Positions 11,601 through 64,000 of a stretch of 64,000 nt of DNA are shown one piece after another; the first letter of the stretch is position 1, and each line of letters opens with the position of its first letter. Position numbers and translations under genes: made by a program. The stretch comes from Crossaster papposus (lineage: Eukaryota > Echinodermata > Asteroidea > Velatida > Solasteridae): assembly GCA_037893245.1 (NCBI GenBank), contig JBAIAA010000076.1, positions 186,001-250,000 of the forward strand. The letters run 5' to 3'. Under the pieces are notes generated by a model. The model was not told the origin of the DNA, did no database searches, and saw nothing but the letters and a program-made list of their open reading frames with translations.

Positions 11601-14600
11601 AAAGAGTGTACCCCAAATTGATTCCCTGACCCATGTAGCAGTTTTTGTAGGTATTGCTTATCACAGAGCTGATGACAATAAAATCCAATTAAGTTAGTCC
11701 ACTATTCACAATCACTCTAATAGAACATCAACATTGAGCAGTGAACCAGAGTTATAAAATGATATATTGCCAGAATCCAATCCATCTACATCTTGTTGAT
11801 TTAAAGGTAGGATACACCATTTGCAGATATCGAAAATATTTACTACTGAATTATTAGGAAATATCTTACTCATTTGAAAGTAAATAATTATTCTAGGCAT
11901 CCAGCAAAATTATTGCGCTAGATACCCTGTAATTATTCCGAAAAATTGAATTTTATAAAGACAAATTCGCGATCGCCGGCCGGCGATCGCGAAAAAACAA
12001 AAATAACATAAGAATAACTACCTGATGCTGGTTAAAAACAAACGCCGTTTTTCGTGCTTTTCTCGTCATCTATGATTCTAAAACTTCGGACAGGTCAGCT
12101 AAATAATATTTACTATAAAATACAACCCTACAAATCTACCCATTTATGATAATTCAAGCAATTACCAATGGTGTACCTTTAAACAATCCATCATATAAAT
12201 CACATGCATTAACACACACAATTCAAACTTATTAAGTACAAAACAAACCTACCATCAGTCAAAACCTGTAGAGTCTCCCTGGCACCTTTGTGCTCGTAAA
12301 TATTCCAGAGTTTCACTGTCTTATCCCATGATGCACTAGCCAATATGTCTGCCACTGAGCTGAAACAAAGGCTTGATACCGGGCCCTCATGGCCAGCAAG
12401 AACCTGACAGATAAGATGTTTAACAAAAGCAAATTATGTGAAAGTAGTGTGGTAGTACGTTAACAAAAGGAATGCTAGATGTTTCAAATGTAAAGGATTT
12501 TTTCTCAAAAAGAGTTTGTTAGGAACAGAAATGTCACCACTGGGTGTTAACTTCATTAAATTCATTTCACTGTTTCATTCACATGATGTAGATCTGCCCT
12601 TACCTCTAGCAATCGTCCAGTTTGCATGGACCAGACAAAGATTTCAAAGCTATCCTGAGCTCCTGCAGCCACTAACTGACCGCTAGAGTCAACAGCCAGG
12701 TAAACAAACTGAGCAGGATGAGGAGATGTAAAGGTGCGGAAATTACGATATCTGAAACAAAATAATCAGAAAAACATGTCCACAACATTAATAAATCAAA
12801 GTTCTTGGTTTCAAAACAGTCACACAATTGTCAATTCTACCGACTTCTCATTTGAGAATGAAACAAACAATTTGAAAATGCCAGTATTATGATTTCAGTC
12901 CTTTCTGATTGTGTCAAATAAAGCTTTTTGGGTAGAGTGTAGCCAACACTTTATTTAAATGACTATACAGGGCCCCCCCCCCTAAAAAAAACTTAAAAAA
13001 ATAAAAAAATAAAAATAACCCCAAACAAGAACAAAGCGTGCTTTCACTGCACTGAGGCCAAATTAAAATAATGGATGGAGAGTCTTTGTGGAAGAAAACA
13101 ATACCAAGTGGTCTGGAGCTAAAACTACTGGACCAAATCGGGATTTATTTGGTATTATTTTTCTTCTAGAAGTATTCTCCATTCATTGGTATAGGTAGTT
13201 TGGGCTTTAGGTAGTGGTGTGCTTGCCCTCTTGTGGGCCACCCTGTATAAGTTGCACAACATCCTATTTTTTGTATTGGATTATTATTACAATGATTCAG
13301 CTGAGTTCATTAAGAACCAAGTTATTTGACCTTTGCGGTTGGCCACAAAGCAAGATCGTTGGACTAACCTGTGCAAATCAAAAGCTCTGACTGTGCCATC
13401 AAGTGAGGACGATACCACCACTTTGCCTGCTTTACCACTGAATGTAATTCCTGAGATGGATGCAGTATGTTCACTGAATGTCACAAAGCAAGAACGTTGG
13501 ACTTACCTGTGCAAATCAAAAGCTCTGACTGTACCATCAAGCGATGACGATACCACCACTTTGCCTGCTTTACCACTGAATGTAATTCCTGAGATGGATG
13601 CAGTATGTTCACTGAATGTCACAAAGCATAGACCACTGCTGCTATTCCATACCTTCACCTGAATTTCAGGACAGAGAAATGATCAACGATGATGATTCTT
13701 GTAAAACTATGATATAGTGCCCCACTCAGCTTATTAACAAAAGGTAATTGGCTCCTAAAACTAGCCAGAAGCAGTAGTTGAACCGTACAAATTGTCACCG
13801 AACTTGAGACTACATGTGTGGGAAGTGAACAAAACATATGAACCAAGGACAACTTTTGTGTGCTTATGCTAAATTGTGCATAAGCTCAGAAACTTGTCAA
13901 ACTTTATGGTCTAAAGTTATCACTAAACTTTAGACCATGTAGTTGGCTCTCTGTTTTGCACTGCAATAAATATGTTTAAAACTGTAAAGCAAACAACTTT
14001 TTTGTGCTGGTCTTAAATAAATAAGATTATAAATTAGATCACTTGGTGAAAATAGAAACCAACTCAAGAAACGTGCTAGTTTTTATCTCAATTTAATCTC
14101 ACCTTTCCATCCTGTCCACCGGTCACAATCAGCTGACCATCAGGTGAGAAGTCCAAACAATTCATGTTGTTATGGTGACCTTGTTGCTTCAAGACATAGC
14201 ATTCACTCTGCCATTCCCAGACTAGTAACTGTCCAAGTCCTGAGCAACCGAACCCTATCCAATCTCCTGATGGATTAAACCTGACTGCTGCTATACACTG
14301 GTGGGATATACTAGGAAGACAAACAAATACACTTGAAATTAACTCAGGTTGAGCATGGGGTCTGAAAGAAAGAACCTACAATGTAGACACTGTCATTGTA
14401 AGGAGAAACTGAGGGTGCTACAATGAAGTAGACTAGCAAAGACAGAGTAGACAGGACTCAGCTTGGACTAATAAACTATGAATGCCTGAGAACAGAGAAA
14501 TGTTAACAGAGTTCGTCTCAAAAGTCATCATCATGTCAACTACACAGGCCTCATCAAGCTACCTCACAAATAAGAACAGATGATACAAATTGTGGGGGAA

Positions 14601-23340: not shown

Positions 23341-23350
23341 TTCAAACATA

Positions 23351-24757
23351 AGAAAGTGACGTGACCGATTACTACAGCTAGAGTTCTTTGCTACATCTTC
23401 AGACTTGCCGTCTATACTAAGACAACCATACTAAGAAAGTGACGTGACCGATTATGATGGTGAGAGTTCTCTGCTACATCTTCAGACTTGCCGTCTATAC
23501 TAAGACAACCATACTAAGAAAGTGACGTGACCGATTATGATGGTGAGAGTTCTCTGCTACATCTCCAGACTTGCCGTCTATACCAAGACAACCATACTAA
23601 GAAAGTGACGTGACCGATTATGATGGTGAGAGTTCTCTGCTACATCTCCAGACTTGCCGTCTATACCAAGACAACCATACTAAGAAAGTGACGTGACCGA
23701 TTATGACGGTGAGAGTTCTCTGCTACATCTCTAGACTTGCCGTCTATACCAAGACAACCATACTAAGAAAGTGACGTGACCGATTATGATGGTGAGAGTT
23801 CTCTGCTACATCTCCAGACTTGCCGTCTATACCAAGACAACCATACTAAGAAAGTGACGTGACCGATTATGACGGTGAGAGTTCTCTGCTACATCTCCAG
23901 ACTTGCCGTCTATACCAAGACAACTGTACTAAGAAAGTGACGTGACCGATTATGATGGTGAGAGTTCTCTGCTACATCTCCAGACTTGCCGTCTATACCA
24001 AGACAACTGTACTAAGAAAGTGACGTGACCGATTATGACGGTGAGAGTTCTCTGCTACATCTCCAGACTTGCCGTCTATACCAAGACAACCATACTAAGA
24101 AAGTGACGTGACCGATTATGACGGTGAGAGTTCTCTGCTACATCTCCAGACTTGCCGTCTATACCAAGACAACTGTACTAAGAAAGTGACGTGACCGATT
24201 ATGATGGTGAGAGTTCTCTGCTACATCTCCAGACTTGCCGTCTATACCAAGACAACTGTACTAAGAAAGTGACGTGACCGATTATGACGGTGAGAGTTCT
24301 CTGCTACATCTCCAGACTTGCCGTCTATACCAAGACAACCATACTAAGAAAGTGACGTGACCGATTATGACGGTGAGAGTTCTCTGCTACATCTCCAGAC
24401 TTGCCGTCTATACCAAGACAACTGTACTAAGAAAGTGACGTGACCGATTATGATGGTTGGAGTTCTCTGCTACGTCTCGAGACTTGCCGTCTATACCAAG
24501 ACAACCAAACTAAGAAAGTGACGTGACCGATTATGATGGTGAGAGTTCTCTGCTACATCTCCAGACTTGCCGTCTATACCAAGACAACCATACTAAGAAA
24601 GTGACGTGACCGATTATGATGGTGAGAGTTCTCTGCTACATCTCCAGACTTGCCGTCTATACCAAGACAACCATACTAAGAAAGTGACGTGACCGATTAT
24701 GATGGTGAGAGTTCTCTGCTACATCTTCAGACTCGCCGTCTATACCAAGACAACTTT
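23351..24757. repeat. 83-bp satellite array, 17 copies, each with a CRE-like motif
   Basis: The exact 83-bp period is visible from AGAAAGTGACGTGACCGATT recurring at 23351, 23434 and onward to 24679. Copies differ at a few fixed positions (GATGGT/GACGGT, CCATAC/CTGTAC). Each unit contains TGACGTGA. The array ends about 150 bp from the stop codon of the lectin receptor, downstream of it. Confidence 0.97.
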
Positions 24758-34729: not shown

Positions 34730-36172
34730 GTGTTCCCCCATGGTGTTCATACCCCATGGTGTTCATATCCCATGGTGTTCATATCCCATGGTGTTCATAT
34801 CCCATGGCGTTCATATCCCATGGCGTTCATATCCCATGCTGTTCATATCCCATGCTGTTCATATCCCATGGTGTTCATATCCCATGCTGTTCATATCCCA
34901 TGCTGTTCATATCCCATGCTGTTCATATCCCATGGTGTTCATATCCCATGCTGTTCATATCCCATGCTGTTCATATCCCATGCTGTTCATATCCCATGCT
35001 GTTCATATCCCATGGTGTTCATATCCCATGGTGTTCATATCCCATGCTGTTCATATCCCATGCTGTTCATATCTCATGCTGTTCATATCCCATGCTGTTC
35101 ATATCCCATGCTGTTCATATCCCATGCTGTTCATATCCCATGCTGTTCATATCCCATGCTGTTCATATCCCATGCTGTTCATATCCCATGCTGTTCATAT
35201 CCCATGCTGTTCATATCCCATGGTGTTCATATCCCATGGCGTTCATATCCCATGGCGTTCATATCCCATGCTGTTCATATCCCATGGTGTTCATATCCCA
35301 TGGTGTTCATATCCCATGGTGTTCATATCCCATGGTGTTCATATCCCATGGTGTTCATATCCCATGGTGTTCATATCCCATGCTGTTCATATCCCATGCT
35401 GTTCATATCCCATGCTGTTCATATCCCATGCTGTTCATATCCCATGCTGTTCATATCCCATGGTGTTCATATCCCATGGTGTTCATATCCCATGCTGTTC
35501 ATATCCCATGCTGTTCATATCTCATGCTGTTCATATCACATGCTGTTCATATCCCATGCTGTTCATATCCCATGCTGTTCATATCCCATGCTGTTCATAT
35601 CCCATGCTGTTCATATCCCATGCTGTTCATATCCCATGCTGTTCATATCCCATGCTGTTCATATCCCATGGTGTTCATATCCCATGGCGTTCATATCCCA
35701 TGGCGTTCATATCCCATGCTGTTCATATCCCATGGTGTTCATATCCCATGGTGTTCATATCCCATGGTGTTCATATCCCATGGTGTTCATATCCCATGGT
35801 GTTCATATCCCATGGTGTTCATATCCCATGCTGTTCATATCCCATGCTGTTCATATCCCATGCTGTTCATATCCCATGCTGTTCATATCCCATGCTGTTC
35901 ATATCCCATGCTGTTCATATCCCATGCTGTTCATATCCCATGCTGTTCATATCCCATGCTGTTCATATCCCATGCTGTTCATATCCCATGCTGTTCATAT
36001 CCCATGCTGTTCATATCCCATGCTGTTCATATCCCATGCTGTTCATATCCCATGCTGTTCATATCCCATGCTGTTCATATCCCATGCTGTTCATATCCCA
36101 TGCTGTTCATATCCCATGCTGTTCATATCCCATGCTGTTCATATCCCATGCTGTTCATATCCCATGCTGTCA
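34730..36172. repeat. 16-bp satellite (CATATCCCATGCTGTT), about 90 copies
   Basis: Perfect 16-bp period with variants GGTG, GCTG and GGCG after CCAT. Because 16 is not a multiple of 3, all three plus frames are open for about 500 codons, each cycling a 16-residue motif such as SHAVHIPCCSYPMLFI. Variant order repeats with a 448-bp (28-unit) higher-order period. I do not treat the open frames as genes. Confidence 0.97.
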
Positions 36173-59505: not shown

Positions 59506-60408
59506 CTATTTTAAACATGGTTGAAGAGGATAGGCTGAATCTCCAAGAAGGATTCCATCTCTGATGTGACCGTTTTCAAAGTCCTGATTTAGCCGGCATG
59601 TATTGCATACAAACGCATCATGGGTAGTCCCCGGCATCTTATTACAAGAATAGTGAATTTTAGCTGGCGGTTGCAAATTTCTCGAACAAGTTAATTGCAT
59701 GATACCGCTTCCGACATACAAATGCATCTTCATTCTGACTGGGAGCATGGATACTAAGCTACCATCAAGGCAACCAAGCACATTTGGTATGCGGTGTCTG
59801 TCTCTCTCAAAGAAACCCTCCTTGACGGTTTGTTGATCTCTTTGCAGCCGAGGGAACTTAATCAACTCCTGACTTTTGTTCGCAACAGCAGCCGACACCC
59901 GTGTTACAATCCGGGACACCAAGGCCCGACTGATTCCAGTTAGGTCTCCGCTAACAAATTGAACATTCCCAGTTGAATAATAGCGAAGTGCGCACAGTAT
60001 ACACAGTAGACTTGCTGGTATGGCATGAGACCGTTGTGTCGGATGTTTAATATCAGTTTCAATCAAATTAATGACCTCCAGAATGACATGGCGAAGCATC
60101 CGAAATTGCTTTTTAAAATCAACGTCATCATACTGTTCGAGAGGATTTATCATATCGCGAAAAATCCTAATCCTGCGAAGATTTCTTCGCATAGCCGCGT
60201 CTACAGCAAGCAATAGCGCCATTTTCTCCCGTCCAATCTGCGAAATTATCCTATTAGCGTTGCAGATTGCGTCCTTGCTAAAATAGCGCCGCAAGCCCGC
60301 AAACGCTTGCGTTCCTTTTGTGAATAAGGCCTCTGGTTTGTATACCCCATCTGTTGTCGGCACTGACCGCCGCAGAGAGGCCGAACCGAACACACAGTCG
60401 TGAACCAC
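59506..60408 (-). pseudogene. HARBI1-like (PIF/Harbinger) transposase, C-terminally truncated
   Basis: 300-codon open frame. The natural start is probably Met63 (MALLLAVDAAMRRNLRR). The middle shows the family pattern: CALRYYSTGNVQFVSGDLTG, SRALVSRIVTRVSAAV, then the first catalytic block GCLDGSLVSM (Asp215), MPGTTHDAFV in place of the usual pre-catalytic PGSTHD, and LLGDSAYPLQP (Asp290). It stops at residue 300, before the third catalytic acid, so it cannot be an active nuclease as it stands. Unrelated in detail to the 42-kb Harbinger. Confidence 0.87.
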
Positions 60409-61270
60409 ATAACGACCGAGGATCCCCTATTGTGTTTTCCTTTATTTCTGTACTATAACCTAACCCTATTACCTAGCGCTTATACCCGAACGATCGAGGA
60501 CCGAATTCGAACAAGCAAACCGTCCTTCGTCTGTTGTGTTTCGATCCTCGATCGTAATACGATACAAGAGCACGCGTAGACAGCAGAGGGGCAGCGACGC
60601 CAGTCGTGTAACAGCCACACGACCGATTCAACAATTTCCCCGATTTTTCAGCACAGGTTTGGCGCCGCGGGAGCCGATGCCGCGGGAGCCTTTGTTGGAC
60701 AAACATTTTAGATAAACTTCCTCTTATACAAATGTATAGATAAATACAGCAGAACTGTGTTCAAATCGCATTAATCATTAATCTCATGTGCTCCAAGTTG
60801 GGAGTTAAAACTAGCAATCACTTTTTTAATTTCTTTTTTACGTTTTTCCATTTTACATGTACAAAACAGTACAATTACGAGCATGATTCAGAGGTGCCAA
60901 TCATATGGACATACATGTACTCATTTTAGTTGCCAAGGGCCTGCACAGAGAAAACTGCGATATGATCTGTATAAAAAAAAAAAATGACCAGTACCACATG
61001 TTAAGTATTTATCAAGTTTTAATATTTTTAAATTAGATCTAGATGCTAAACAGGCTTTGAATGACGAGAACCTCAGAGAAGTAGAAGATGAATAAATATA
61101 ATATGATAATTAGAATAATTCCAACATACATGTACATGTATATGAAGAACTAGCACAATCCACTTTTCAATGTCTTTTTCTTTAAGTATCACTGAAACTG
61201 CAGGTGTAAGTGTGAATGTTCACGTGGTACGTTCACCCCTTGTGCCCCCTACAAAATTAATCCTATAGTT
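60409..61270. other. No gene seen
   Basis: 60440-60710 holds paired CCGATCGAGG/CGATCCTCGATCG motifs, possibly a terminus of the transposon at 59506. The rest is AT-rich with no exon-like sequence. Confidence 0.4.
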
Positions 61271-61316
61271 ATGTCGCTGGGTCATATTAAACACTATATC
61301 CATTGCCAGTCAATCG

Positions 61317-62245
61317 TGGAGAGAAATGGAAGGGAGGTCACTCTCTTGTTGACACGTTACATGCTGCTTACGGAAAGAAATGGAAGGGAGGCCATTCTCC
61401 ATCACGGAGAGGAATGGAAAAGAGATCACTCTCAATCACGGAGAGGAATGGAAGGGAGGCCATTCTCCATCACGGAGAGGAAAGGAAGGGAGGTCACTCT
61501 CTTGTTGACACGTTGCATGCTGCTTACGGAGAGGAATGAAAGGGGGGTCACTCTCAATCACGGAGAGGAATGGAAGGGAGGTCACTCCCAATCACGGAGA
61601 GGAATGGAAAAGAGATCACTCTCAATCACGGAGAGGAATGGAAGGGAGGCCATTCTCCATCACGGAGAGGAAAGGAAGGGAGGTCACTCTCTTGTTGACA
61701 CGTTGCATGCTGCTTACGGAAAAGAATGGAAGGGAGGTCACTCCCCATCACGGAGAGGAATGAAAGGGAGGTCACTCTCCTTCACGGAGAGGAATGGAAG
61801 GGAGGTCACTCTCTTGTTGACGCGTTGCATGCTGCTTACGAAGAGGAATGGAAGGGGGGTCACTCTCAATCACGGAGAGGAATGGAAGGGAGGTCACTCC
61901 CTATCACGGAGAGGAATGGAAGGGAGGTCCCTCTCAATCACGGAGGGGAATGAACACGAGGTCACTTTCTTATTGACACATTGCATGCTGCTTATGGAGA
62001 GGAATGGAAGGGAAGTTACTCTCAATAGAAGGGAGGTCACTCTCTTGTTGACACGTTGCATGCTGCTTACGAAGAGGAATGGAAGAGAAGTTACTCTCAA
62101 TCCTGGAGGGGAATGGAAGGGAGGTCACTCTCTTGTTGACACGTTGCATGCTTCTTACGAAGAGGAATGGAAGAGAAGTTACTCTCAATCCTGGAGGGGA
62201 ATGGAAGGGAGGTCACTTTCTTGTTGACACGTTGCATGCTGCTTG
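61317..62245. repeat. Composite minisatellite carrying copies of the RECQL5 exon end
   Basis: Units of about 34 bp (CACGGAGAGGAATGGAAGG then GAGGTCACTCTCAAT) alternate with a block CTTGTTGACACGTTGCATGC then TGCTT, which occurs eight times (about 61341, 61500, 61690, 61813, 61970, 62042, 62132, 62220). On the minus strand that block reads KQHATCQQ, the end of the last RECQL5 coding exon. A 318-codon plus-strand frame is a by-product. Confidence 0.95.
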
Positions 62246-64000
62246 AAGTAGTCCTTGACAAGTTTCTTTGCTTTATCCTTCACTAATAAATAAATATTTA
62301 GGGAGAAACAAAAAAAGAGACGTTCAGAATGTAGATAAAGTACTAGTTGACAGAATAAATATTTCAATCTTTGAAAGATGGCCCCTAAACTCAGCCCATC
62401 GCCAGCTTTGGGCGATAATAAGTTTCAATGATAATTCAAACTTAAACTACATATAAGATAATTCACTTACACGGTCGTTTGGTGAGTGCACCATCCAGTG
62501 TTATCCGATGTGCAAGTCGTTTTGCAAGCATCTTAAACAAGTCCTAAATGAGAGGTACATTAATGAATTATGAGAGAGAAATTTAGAAATGACATGTAAT
62601 CATGATGATAAACACCTGTATAAAATACTAATACAAAAAAATATCAAAAGGATGGAGATGGTGGCAACTTGGGGAAGACAGAAATTGTTTAAAAATTCAA
62701 TATTTAACAACAGTGCTGAGAGTTAATACAGAGAAATGTATTACATGTACCAACCTTTGAGGCAAATTTGTTGTCTTTGTAATATGGGGTCAGCAACTTG
62801 ACCACAACATCTGCAGCCAACCGTCGGACATCTTTAACTGTTGAAGTTCCCTGCTTAACCTCTCTTGACTTCTCATTGTCTACTGTACTTGGGTCAAAGG
62901 TCACTGATCTCCTTGGATTGCTATCATCTGCACTTACGCTACCCAAGTTATTATCTTCAGAGTTTTTTGGATCTTGGCTTGAAAGTTTGGGCCTCTTGGA
63001 AAACTTAGGATGCTGTTAAGAGAGTAAGACAACATGCAAGTTACTTGCTTCAGCTGCTTTCGTAGGAGTATGTCTTAATTATTTCATGTCGTCATCAATT
63101 ATCCCCAAAACAGCCTCCAAACAAGTTTTGACAATTTTTTCCTTTCTTTTACCAGCCCTATATTTAGGGCGTCATTTCCTTATTGCTAACAAAGAAAAGT
63201 TCTGCCCGTTATTTAGTACATGTACTAATAAAAAACATTAACCGATGGAGGTTTATCTGATAGAGGCTTCTGTTCAATGAAATAGTACACTATGAGGATT
63301 AAACCATAAATCTGTACCTACTTTAAGTGTTGAATCAGTGGTTCTCTTTCTGCTTGACGACTTCATCAAGTCACTGCCATCACCATCAATACTGTTAATA
63401 AAAAGTAGAAAATAAACCAAATTGATGTTCGTATGCTTAGAGGAACTACAGGAATTCTGAACCCCCCCCCAAGGGTGAATCAAATTTTAAGTCTTATAAC
63501 TGACAACTACATTGTTCCATTTCATAATTTGTTGCAAACTGCACATTCATCGACATAAAGATAAATTGTAATGTTTATCAAGCCTTACCTTATTACAGAT
63601 AATGCTAAATGTTCCTCATCTGGCATTTCCATGTTAGAAATTGAATATCCTCCGTCTTTACAGTCAGAAACACATTTTTCTGTTGAAAAGGAACTTCTCC
63701 TAAAAGGTTCAGCAAATTCCGAGATGGACAATGGATGAGATGATACACTAGACTCGTCATCTGAACAAACCAAGGTGGTTGCATCAGGTGTGCTTACTTG
63801 GTTCATCTTGACATTCCTCGAACAGGTGCCAGACACACTAGAGTTTGCACGGGGTGAATCCTTTATGCCAAACACACCAGAGTTTGTGCAGGGTGAATCC
63901 TTTATGCCACCACTATTAGCATTTATAGAATCATATTGATGCTCGTCATGTACAGGTTCCACATCTGTTTGACTGTCTTTAATTCTGCTGCTGGGTGATG
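62185..64000 (-). CDS. RECQL5: RecQ5-type DNA helicase, C-terminal part (SRI domain), runs off the window
   Basis: Exons in gene order: 64000 (edge)-63589, 63391-63322, 63012-62755, 62543-62471, 62282-62185; all phases agree. The first exons encode a serine/acid-rich linker with an internal repeat (GIKDSPCTNSGVF, GIKDSPRANSSVSG). The C-terminus is an SRI (Set2-Rpb1 interacting) domain: DVVVKLLTPYYKDNKFASK, LFKMLAKRLAHRI, then KDKAKKLVKDYFKQHATCQQ. In RECQL5 this module contacts phosphorylated RNA polymerase II, linking helicase activity to transcription-associated genome stability. SETD2 also has SRI, but the KFASK-x-LFK...ARxL and the C-terminal KxEA-like helix fit RECQL5 better. The stop (TGA at 62185) lies inside minisatellite sequence, so the last 8-10 residues are repeat-derived. 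The helicase domain lies outside the window. Confidence 0.88.

Follow-up and report, generated by a model that had tools for sequence, protein, structure and literature searches.

A minisatellite very probably born from the terminal coding exon of RECQL5 in the sea star Crossaster papposus

In the VNTRs of CEL, MUC1 and PRDM9 the repeats are translated in frame, and SLC6A3/DAT1 is an example of a VNTR in a 3′UTR. To our knowledge, few minisatellites can be traced to a recognisable seed. Minisatellites are built of units some tens of bp long, repeated in tandem. Their arrays range from about 0.5 kb to several kb (PMC2820488). DICE is a repetitive CU-rich 3′UTR sequence that silences translation (PMC3745930). 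Here we describe an array at the end of RECQL5, found in a 64,000-nucleotide stretch of the Crossaster papposus assembly (the window). We argue that this minisatellite very probably arose in situ from that gene's terminal coding exon and has grown by tandem duplication. The locus is an unusually clean case of a known phenomenon, a minisatellite with a known coding birthplace. Among the matches listed for literature on minisatellite origins, coding or terminal-exon minisatellites and RECQL5, no paper dealt with this array.

The end of RECQL5 and the anatomy of the array

The C-terminal part of RECQL5 is encoded on the minus strand of the window by the following exons.

63391-63322 and 63998-63589 (upstream end open), minus strand: RECQL5 exons further upstream, from splice signals
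62755..63012, minus strand: RECQL5 coding exon in which the SRI domain starts (splice signals, Pfam)
62471..62543, minus strand: the coding exon that precedes the terminal one (splice signals, frame)
62185..62282, minus strand: RECQL5 terminal coding exon, 98 bp, with the end of the SRI domain and the C-terminal tail

All have AG acceptors and GT donors wherever applicable. The terminal exon, read from 62282 to 62185 with an AG acceptor in front, translates as ...KDYFKQHATCQQESDLPSIPLQD* and closes with a TGA stop codon at 62187-62185 (minus strand). We assigned it from splice signals and frame, the Pfam SRI match, the human RECQL5 alignment and the sea-star orthologues. In the joined C-terminal 302 residues, Pfam places an SRI domain (PF08236, 1e-17) at residues 225-292, and residues 224-295 align with human RECQL5 913-983 (2e-12). 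RECQL5 proteins combine a RecQ helicase with an SRI domain that follows it at the C-terminus; here the SRI domain lies in the window, and helicase exons, recognised by eye only, lie upstream of the RECQL5 piece that the window holds. The full-length orthologue P0001 carries DEAD, Helicase_C, RecQ_Zn_bind and SRI, all above the Pfam cut-off. The three coding exons for the last 94 RECQL5 residues are each single-copy in the assembly.

From the 13th codon of the terminal exon onwards, 62244-61312 (minus strand) tiles without a gap into 8 copies of a module K and 23 of a module E.

61312..62244, minus strand: whole array, with the coding exon as its first K-E copy (tiling, Tandem Repeats Finder)
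62221..62244, minus strand: K1, the probable seed copy, coding KQHATCQQ and starting right after the Phe codon that closes ...KKLVKDYF
62187..62220, minus strand: E1, coding ESDLPSIPLQD plus the first base of TGA (tiling)
62133..62156, minus strand: K2 (tiling, unit comparison)
62045..62068, minus strand: K3, followed by an E cut to 21 bp (tiling)
61970..61993, minus strand: K4, the most diverged copy, with ATG for ACG and TAA for CAA (tiling, copy comparison)
61814..61837, minus strand: K5 (tiling)
61692..61715, minus strand: K6 (tiling)
61502..61525, minus strand: K7 (tiling)
61312..61369, minus strand: K8 and the last E, the distal edge copy, reading KQHVTCQQESDLPSISLHD plus TGA and then unique GACTGGCAATGG (tiling)

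Module K has 24 bp and encodes KQHATCQQ in the coding copy; module E has 34 bp and encodes ESDLPSIPL.D plus the T of the stop codon. The RECQL5 stop codon straddles the E1/E2 junction, with its T in E1 and its GA as the first two bases of E2. Fifteen E modules are 34 bp long, seven are 30 bp and one is 21 bp; the 30-bp form lacks the last four bases, and one such module precedes each of the seven later K. Successive K are spaced 88, 88, 75, 156, 122, 190 and 156 bp apart, each spacing comprising one K with 2 to 5 E modules. The distal edge copy (61369-61312) encodes ...ESDLPSISLHD followed by TGA, so that it ends GATTGA, and its His codon is CAC. Tandem Repeats Finder reports 61310-62217 (period 156, score 917), 62024-62244 and nested arrays. 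With 34-bp and 24-bp modules across 933 bp, the array is of minisatellite size. A preliminary description of this DNA had an exon-derived block recurring eight times in 0.9 kb, and both the tiling and Tandem Repeats Finder bear this out: the KQHATCQQ-coding block occurs eight times within 61325-62244, the exon itself included. In detail, KQHATCQQESDLPSIP is broken in some copies, and translations and K spacings place the copies in differing reading frames.

The window contains other repeats and elements. At 63827-63909 a RECQL5 coding exon holds a 39-bp in-frame tandem duplication (GIKDSPCTNSGVF/GIKDSPRANSSVS), two stretches where the Patiria RECQL5 protein has one. A 138-bp unit is present in 2.1 copies (96%) at 13344-13628, where the minus strand duplicates the end of what appears by eye to be a WD40 coding exon (...SSLDGTVRAFDLHR) plus its GT donor, the donors reading GTAAGT and then GTTAGT; this looks like an early-stage exon-edge duplication in another gene. 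Since both of these also touch coding sequence in the window, such duplications may be common in the genome. Minisatellites are frequent in the window, given three further large arrays at 311-1106 (28 bp x 27.5), 23349-24754 (83 bp x 16.9) and 34737-36170 (16 bp x 89.6). Downstream of the RECQL5 array, a 306-residue open frame at 59506-60426 (minus strand) has a below-cut-off match (18.6 vs 24.8 bits) to DDE_Tnp_4, which we take to be a Harbinger-type transposase. Outside the window and upstream of RECQL5, open frames of 546 and 1210 codons at about 261632-267016 of the contig look by eye like a LINE-type retrotransposon.

Turnover of the copies and possible roles

The exon unit (62244-62157) differs from unit 2 (62156-62069) at 2 of 88 sites, and the two have a CAG codon in common. 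Because of this small difference, a duplication (or conversion) next to the exon appears to be among the most recent events and to have involved the coding end. Compared with exon K+E1, the six remaining full-length copies show differences at 2 to 8 of 58 sites (5-8 of 58 for five of them), and the truncated copy at 2 of 45. Unit 7 and the initial 156 bases of unit 6 are identical except at 6 sites. The unequal units in the array suggest turnover. Mean pairwise divergence is 14.7% for E and 5.2% for K, and among the seven linked full-length copies it is 0.148 for E and 0.060 for K, a difference that is not significant when judged by variable columns (5 of 24 in K, 12 of 34 in E; P 0.26). The lower divergence of K might reflect constraint on K or exchange between E modules. 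Relative to the exon, the six full-length array copies have 16 nonsynonymous codon differences (one a stop) and 8 synonymous ones, counts that do not represent independent events, as the copies are related. From the sequence, we consider a neutral, locally born minisatellite the most likely reading.

Exchange with the array could still reach the protein. The Patiria RECQL5 structure model was built from a 3-row alignment and is poor overall (mean pLDDT 31.2), with the SRI end as its one usable part. It places the end of the third SRI helix at residue 1182, which is residue two of the K block; confidence is fair over residues 1181-1190 (block mean 80) and poor over residues 1196-1199. A review (PMC7073763) assigns human RECQL5 a PIP motif at 964-971 and maps RNA polymerase I binding to 955-991. 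Counted on the human alignment, the PIP motif ends one residue ahead of the K block. The proposal that array changes would alter the C-terminus must be narrowed: they could, but in the Patiria model no earlier than the final two residues of the third SRI helix. An exchange would, on this model, change the tail behind the helical bundle, and loss of the ordered K-E stretch, as in a 7-residue tail, might matter. Could the array then be a reservoir of alternative C-termini, whose exchange swaps the last 7-32 residues of RECQL5 among individuals? Swapping in copies 2 to 8 would give tails of 19, 32, 7, 21, 29, 29 and 19 residues, so that two of the seven would keep the 19-residue length, and the close match between the exon unit and its neighbour implies that exchange or recent duplication has involved the exon unit. 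However, the coding copy has retained the tail length seen in Patiria and Acanthaster. This suggests that swaps are selected against, and we regard a reservoir as unlikely.

On the RNA side, the nearest of the two commonest polyadenylation signals behind the array is the following candidate.

61018..61023, minus strand: ATTAAA, candidate polyadenylation signal

A weaker AAGAAA lies at 61182, likewise behind the array, and AATAAA is absent within 1.7 kb behind the stop (none before 60446). A 3′UTR of about 1.2 kb, most of it array, is plausible. The array RNA has a folding z of -1.76, and 0 of 20 shuffles fold as well; since it is predicted to fold somewhat better than shuffles, some RNA structure is possible. 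A combined role, in which a self-derived, recombining array at the RECQL5 stop both re-makes the tail (from seven spare drifting copies, each exchangeable) and forms most of the 3′UTR as a multi-copy CU-rich control element, strikes us as quite improbable. We also think it improbable that the CU-rich cores (CCUCCCUUCCAUUCCUCUCC and variants; 22 full, one cut) recruit KH-domain or PTB-like RNA-binding proteins in the 3′UTR and tune RECQL5 translation, in the manner of DICE. The sense strand is indeed pyrimidine-rich at E positions 10-28, and changes there are mostly C/T (27 transitions and 4 transversions in 430 cells), but transitions dominate positions 1-9 too (16 to 1). Nor is the core clearly more conserved, with 0.072 changes per cell against 0.082 at positions 1-9, so this test does not support constraint on it, and the array RNA has no Rfam match at gathering thresholds.

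The plus strand has a 343-codon open frame antisense across the array (61196-62227). We rejected an antisense gene there. The open frame is likely compositional, the scarcity of plus-strand stops being a property of the units (1, 5 and 6 stops per frame across the array on the plus strand, against 11, 16 and 22 on the minus strand), and its two Pfam matches are below the cut-off, with no stretch passing on its own.

Which came first, exon or array

At an E threshold of 0.001, three proteins among 250 candidates passed the homologue search. These RECQL5 homologues are from Patiria miniata (91% over the last 103 residues), Acanthaster planci (86%) and Asterias amurensis (60%), the first two being members of order Valvatida; a second search, started from Asterias, returned only Asterias itself and Patiria. 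The tails read ...LVKDYFKQHATCQQESDLPSIPLQD in the window, ...LVKEYFKQHAMCQQESDLPSIPLHA in Patiria, ...LVKDYFKKHALCNQESDLPSAPLHQ in Acanthaster and ...LVRYYFREHAMCNSESELPPMPSK in Asterias. Tail homology reaches the stop, with the same end residue in Patiria and Acanthaster and an end one residue earlier in Asterias, and the human RECQL5 alignment extends through ESDL. The preliminary description, which aligned residues up to about CQQESDL with known RECQL5 ends, was thus right for human and can be extended to the stop in sea stars. With homology reaching this far in both sea stars and human, the tail was coding long before the array.

The two edges of the array tell a similar story. The first copy runs on upstream into the exon, and the last copy abuts unique sequence. 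At the protein level, the His encoded by CAC in the distal edge copy is common to Patiria and Acanthaster. This codon is reached by 22 E modules: it begins with CG in 18 and is CAG in two (the exon and unit 2), CAT in one and CAC in one. The distal-edge CAC is two base changes away from CGT, the form in most E modules. In the simplest history, growth of the array took place between the exon-side edge and this distal edge. The stop codon had been described as lying inside the repeat. It does lie in repeat sequence, but its position is ancestral and older than the array, because Patiria and Acanthaster end at the same residue and the distal copy closes with GATTGA before unique sequence.

We searched the assembly (1,023,315,904 bases in 1841 contigs, one assembled haplotype) for further copies, with pattern counts that are lower bounds. 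A 26-bp K pattern allowing up to 3 mismatches gave 8 matches in 1.02 Gb, every one in the array, and its reversed control gave 0. With a 28-bp E pattern at the same tolerance, all 18 matches fell in the array (control 0); this pattern misses 5 of the 23 E modules, which have more than 3 mismatches or are truncated. Array-only matches and empty reversed controls rule out chance recurrence of K and E. A dispersed repeat family was also rejected, as no K or E copy was found elsewhere in the assembly at up to 3 mismatches.

Tail homology, the absence of modules elsewhere in the assembly and the ancestral flanks at the edges point from exon to array. The view that the terminal RECQL5 exon seeded the array, already taken in the preliminary description, is well supported by them, and we found no evidence against this direction, with the relatives compared as proteins. 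The opposite order, in which a downstream array existed first, an older RECQL5 stop was lost and the frame ran in, so that the tail is a recruited repeat, would account for the last codons and stop being repeat sequence; we reject it as most improbable, since it is contradicted at the protein level by the tails of the relatives (of the same length in Patiria and Acanthaster, similar minus one residue in Asterias, alignable through ESDL in human) and by a distal edge copy that encodes the His of the Patiria and Acanthaster tails and whose TGA lies beside unique sequence. A collapsed or inflated repeat is just as improbable: arrays are prone to such assembly errors and one haplotype was assembled, but the copies are distinguishable, at the mean pairwise divergence of E given above, and tile in an orderly way. 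The presence of the array looks safe, its exact copy number less so.

For an array descended from the exon, we infer the following order of events and mode of duplication. The ancestral exon, judged from the two edges, would have ended ...F-K-E-TGA and been followed by unique 3′ sequence. The 34-bp stretch E (the last 11 codons and the first base of the stop) would then have been duplicated in tandem, and a larger block, K-E-E′, likewise. Misaligned exchange or slippage may have brought the array to 8 K and 23 E, the units now measuring 75, 88, 122, 156 and 190 bp. Throughout, the coding copy would have stayed the first unit with its frame kept, since each duplication of the block takes the end of the frame with it. 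The array is probably non-coding 3′UTR that evolves neutrally, with the coding copy taking part in the turnover. By inspection, junction microhomology is 2 and 0 bp, and the probability of seeing at least 2 bp by chance is about 0.16; we therefore rejected microhomology as a mark of the duplication mechanism, as it is not above chance.

Comparison with known systems

Because protein conservation shows which sequence was the seed, both ancestral edges survive and the tiling is gap-free, the course of birth and growth can be reconstructed here and put to the test in sister species. The locus also offers a natural experiment on whether an array homogenises the coding exon it came from, or whether that exon is protected from its array.

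Local tandem growth of unique sequence, as proposed here, is likewise the subject of two earlier models, one of them that of Taylor and Breden 2000 (both cited in PMC2820488). Unlike in those models, the seed is the identifiable end of a coding exon with its stop, both ancestral flanks are readable, and the microhomology (2 and 0 bp) is no more than expected by chance. With the SLC6A3/DAT1 VNTR and DICE, the locus has in common a tandem array behind a stop codon. The DICE of 15-lipoxygenase mRNA, which is bound by hnRNP K/E1, is also repeated and CU-rich, like this array. In contrast to both, the unit here derives from a coding exon, and the array is known from DNA alone. Finally, as in the coding and terminal-exon VNTRs of CEL, MUC1 and PRDM9, the units overlap coding sequence and can change the protein. 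Whereas the repeats of those genes are translated in frame, in RECQL5 the first unit alone is coding, and the rest follow the stop codon in no single frame.
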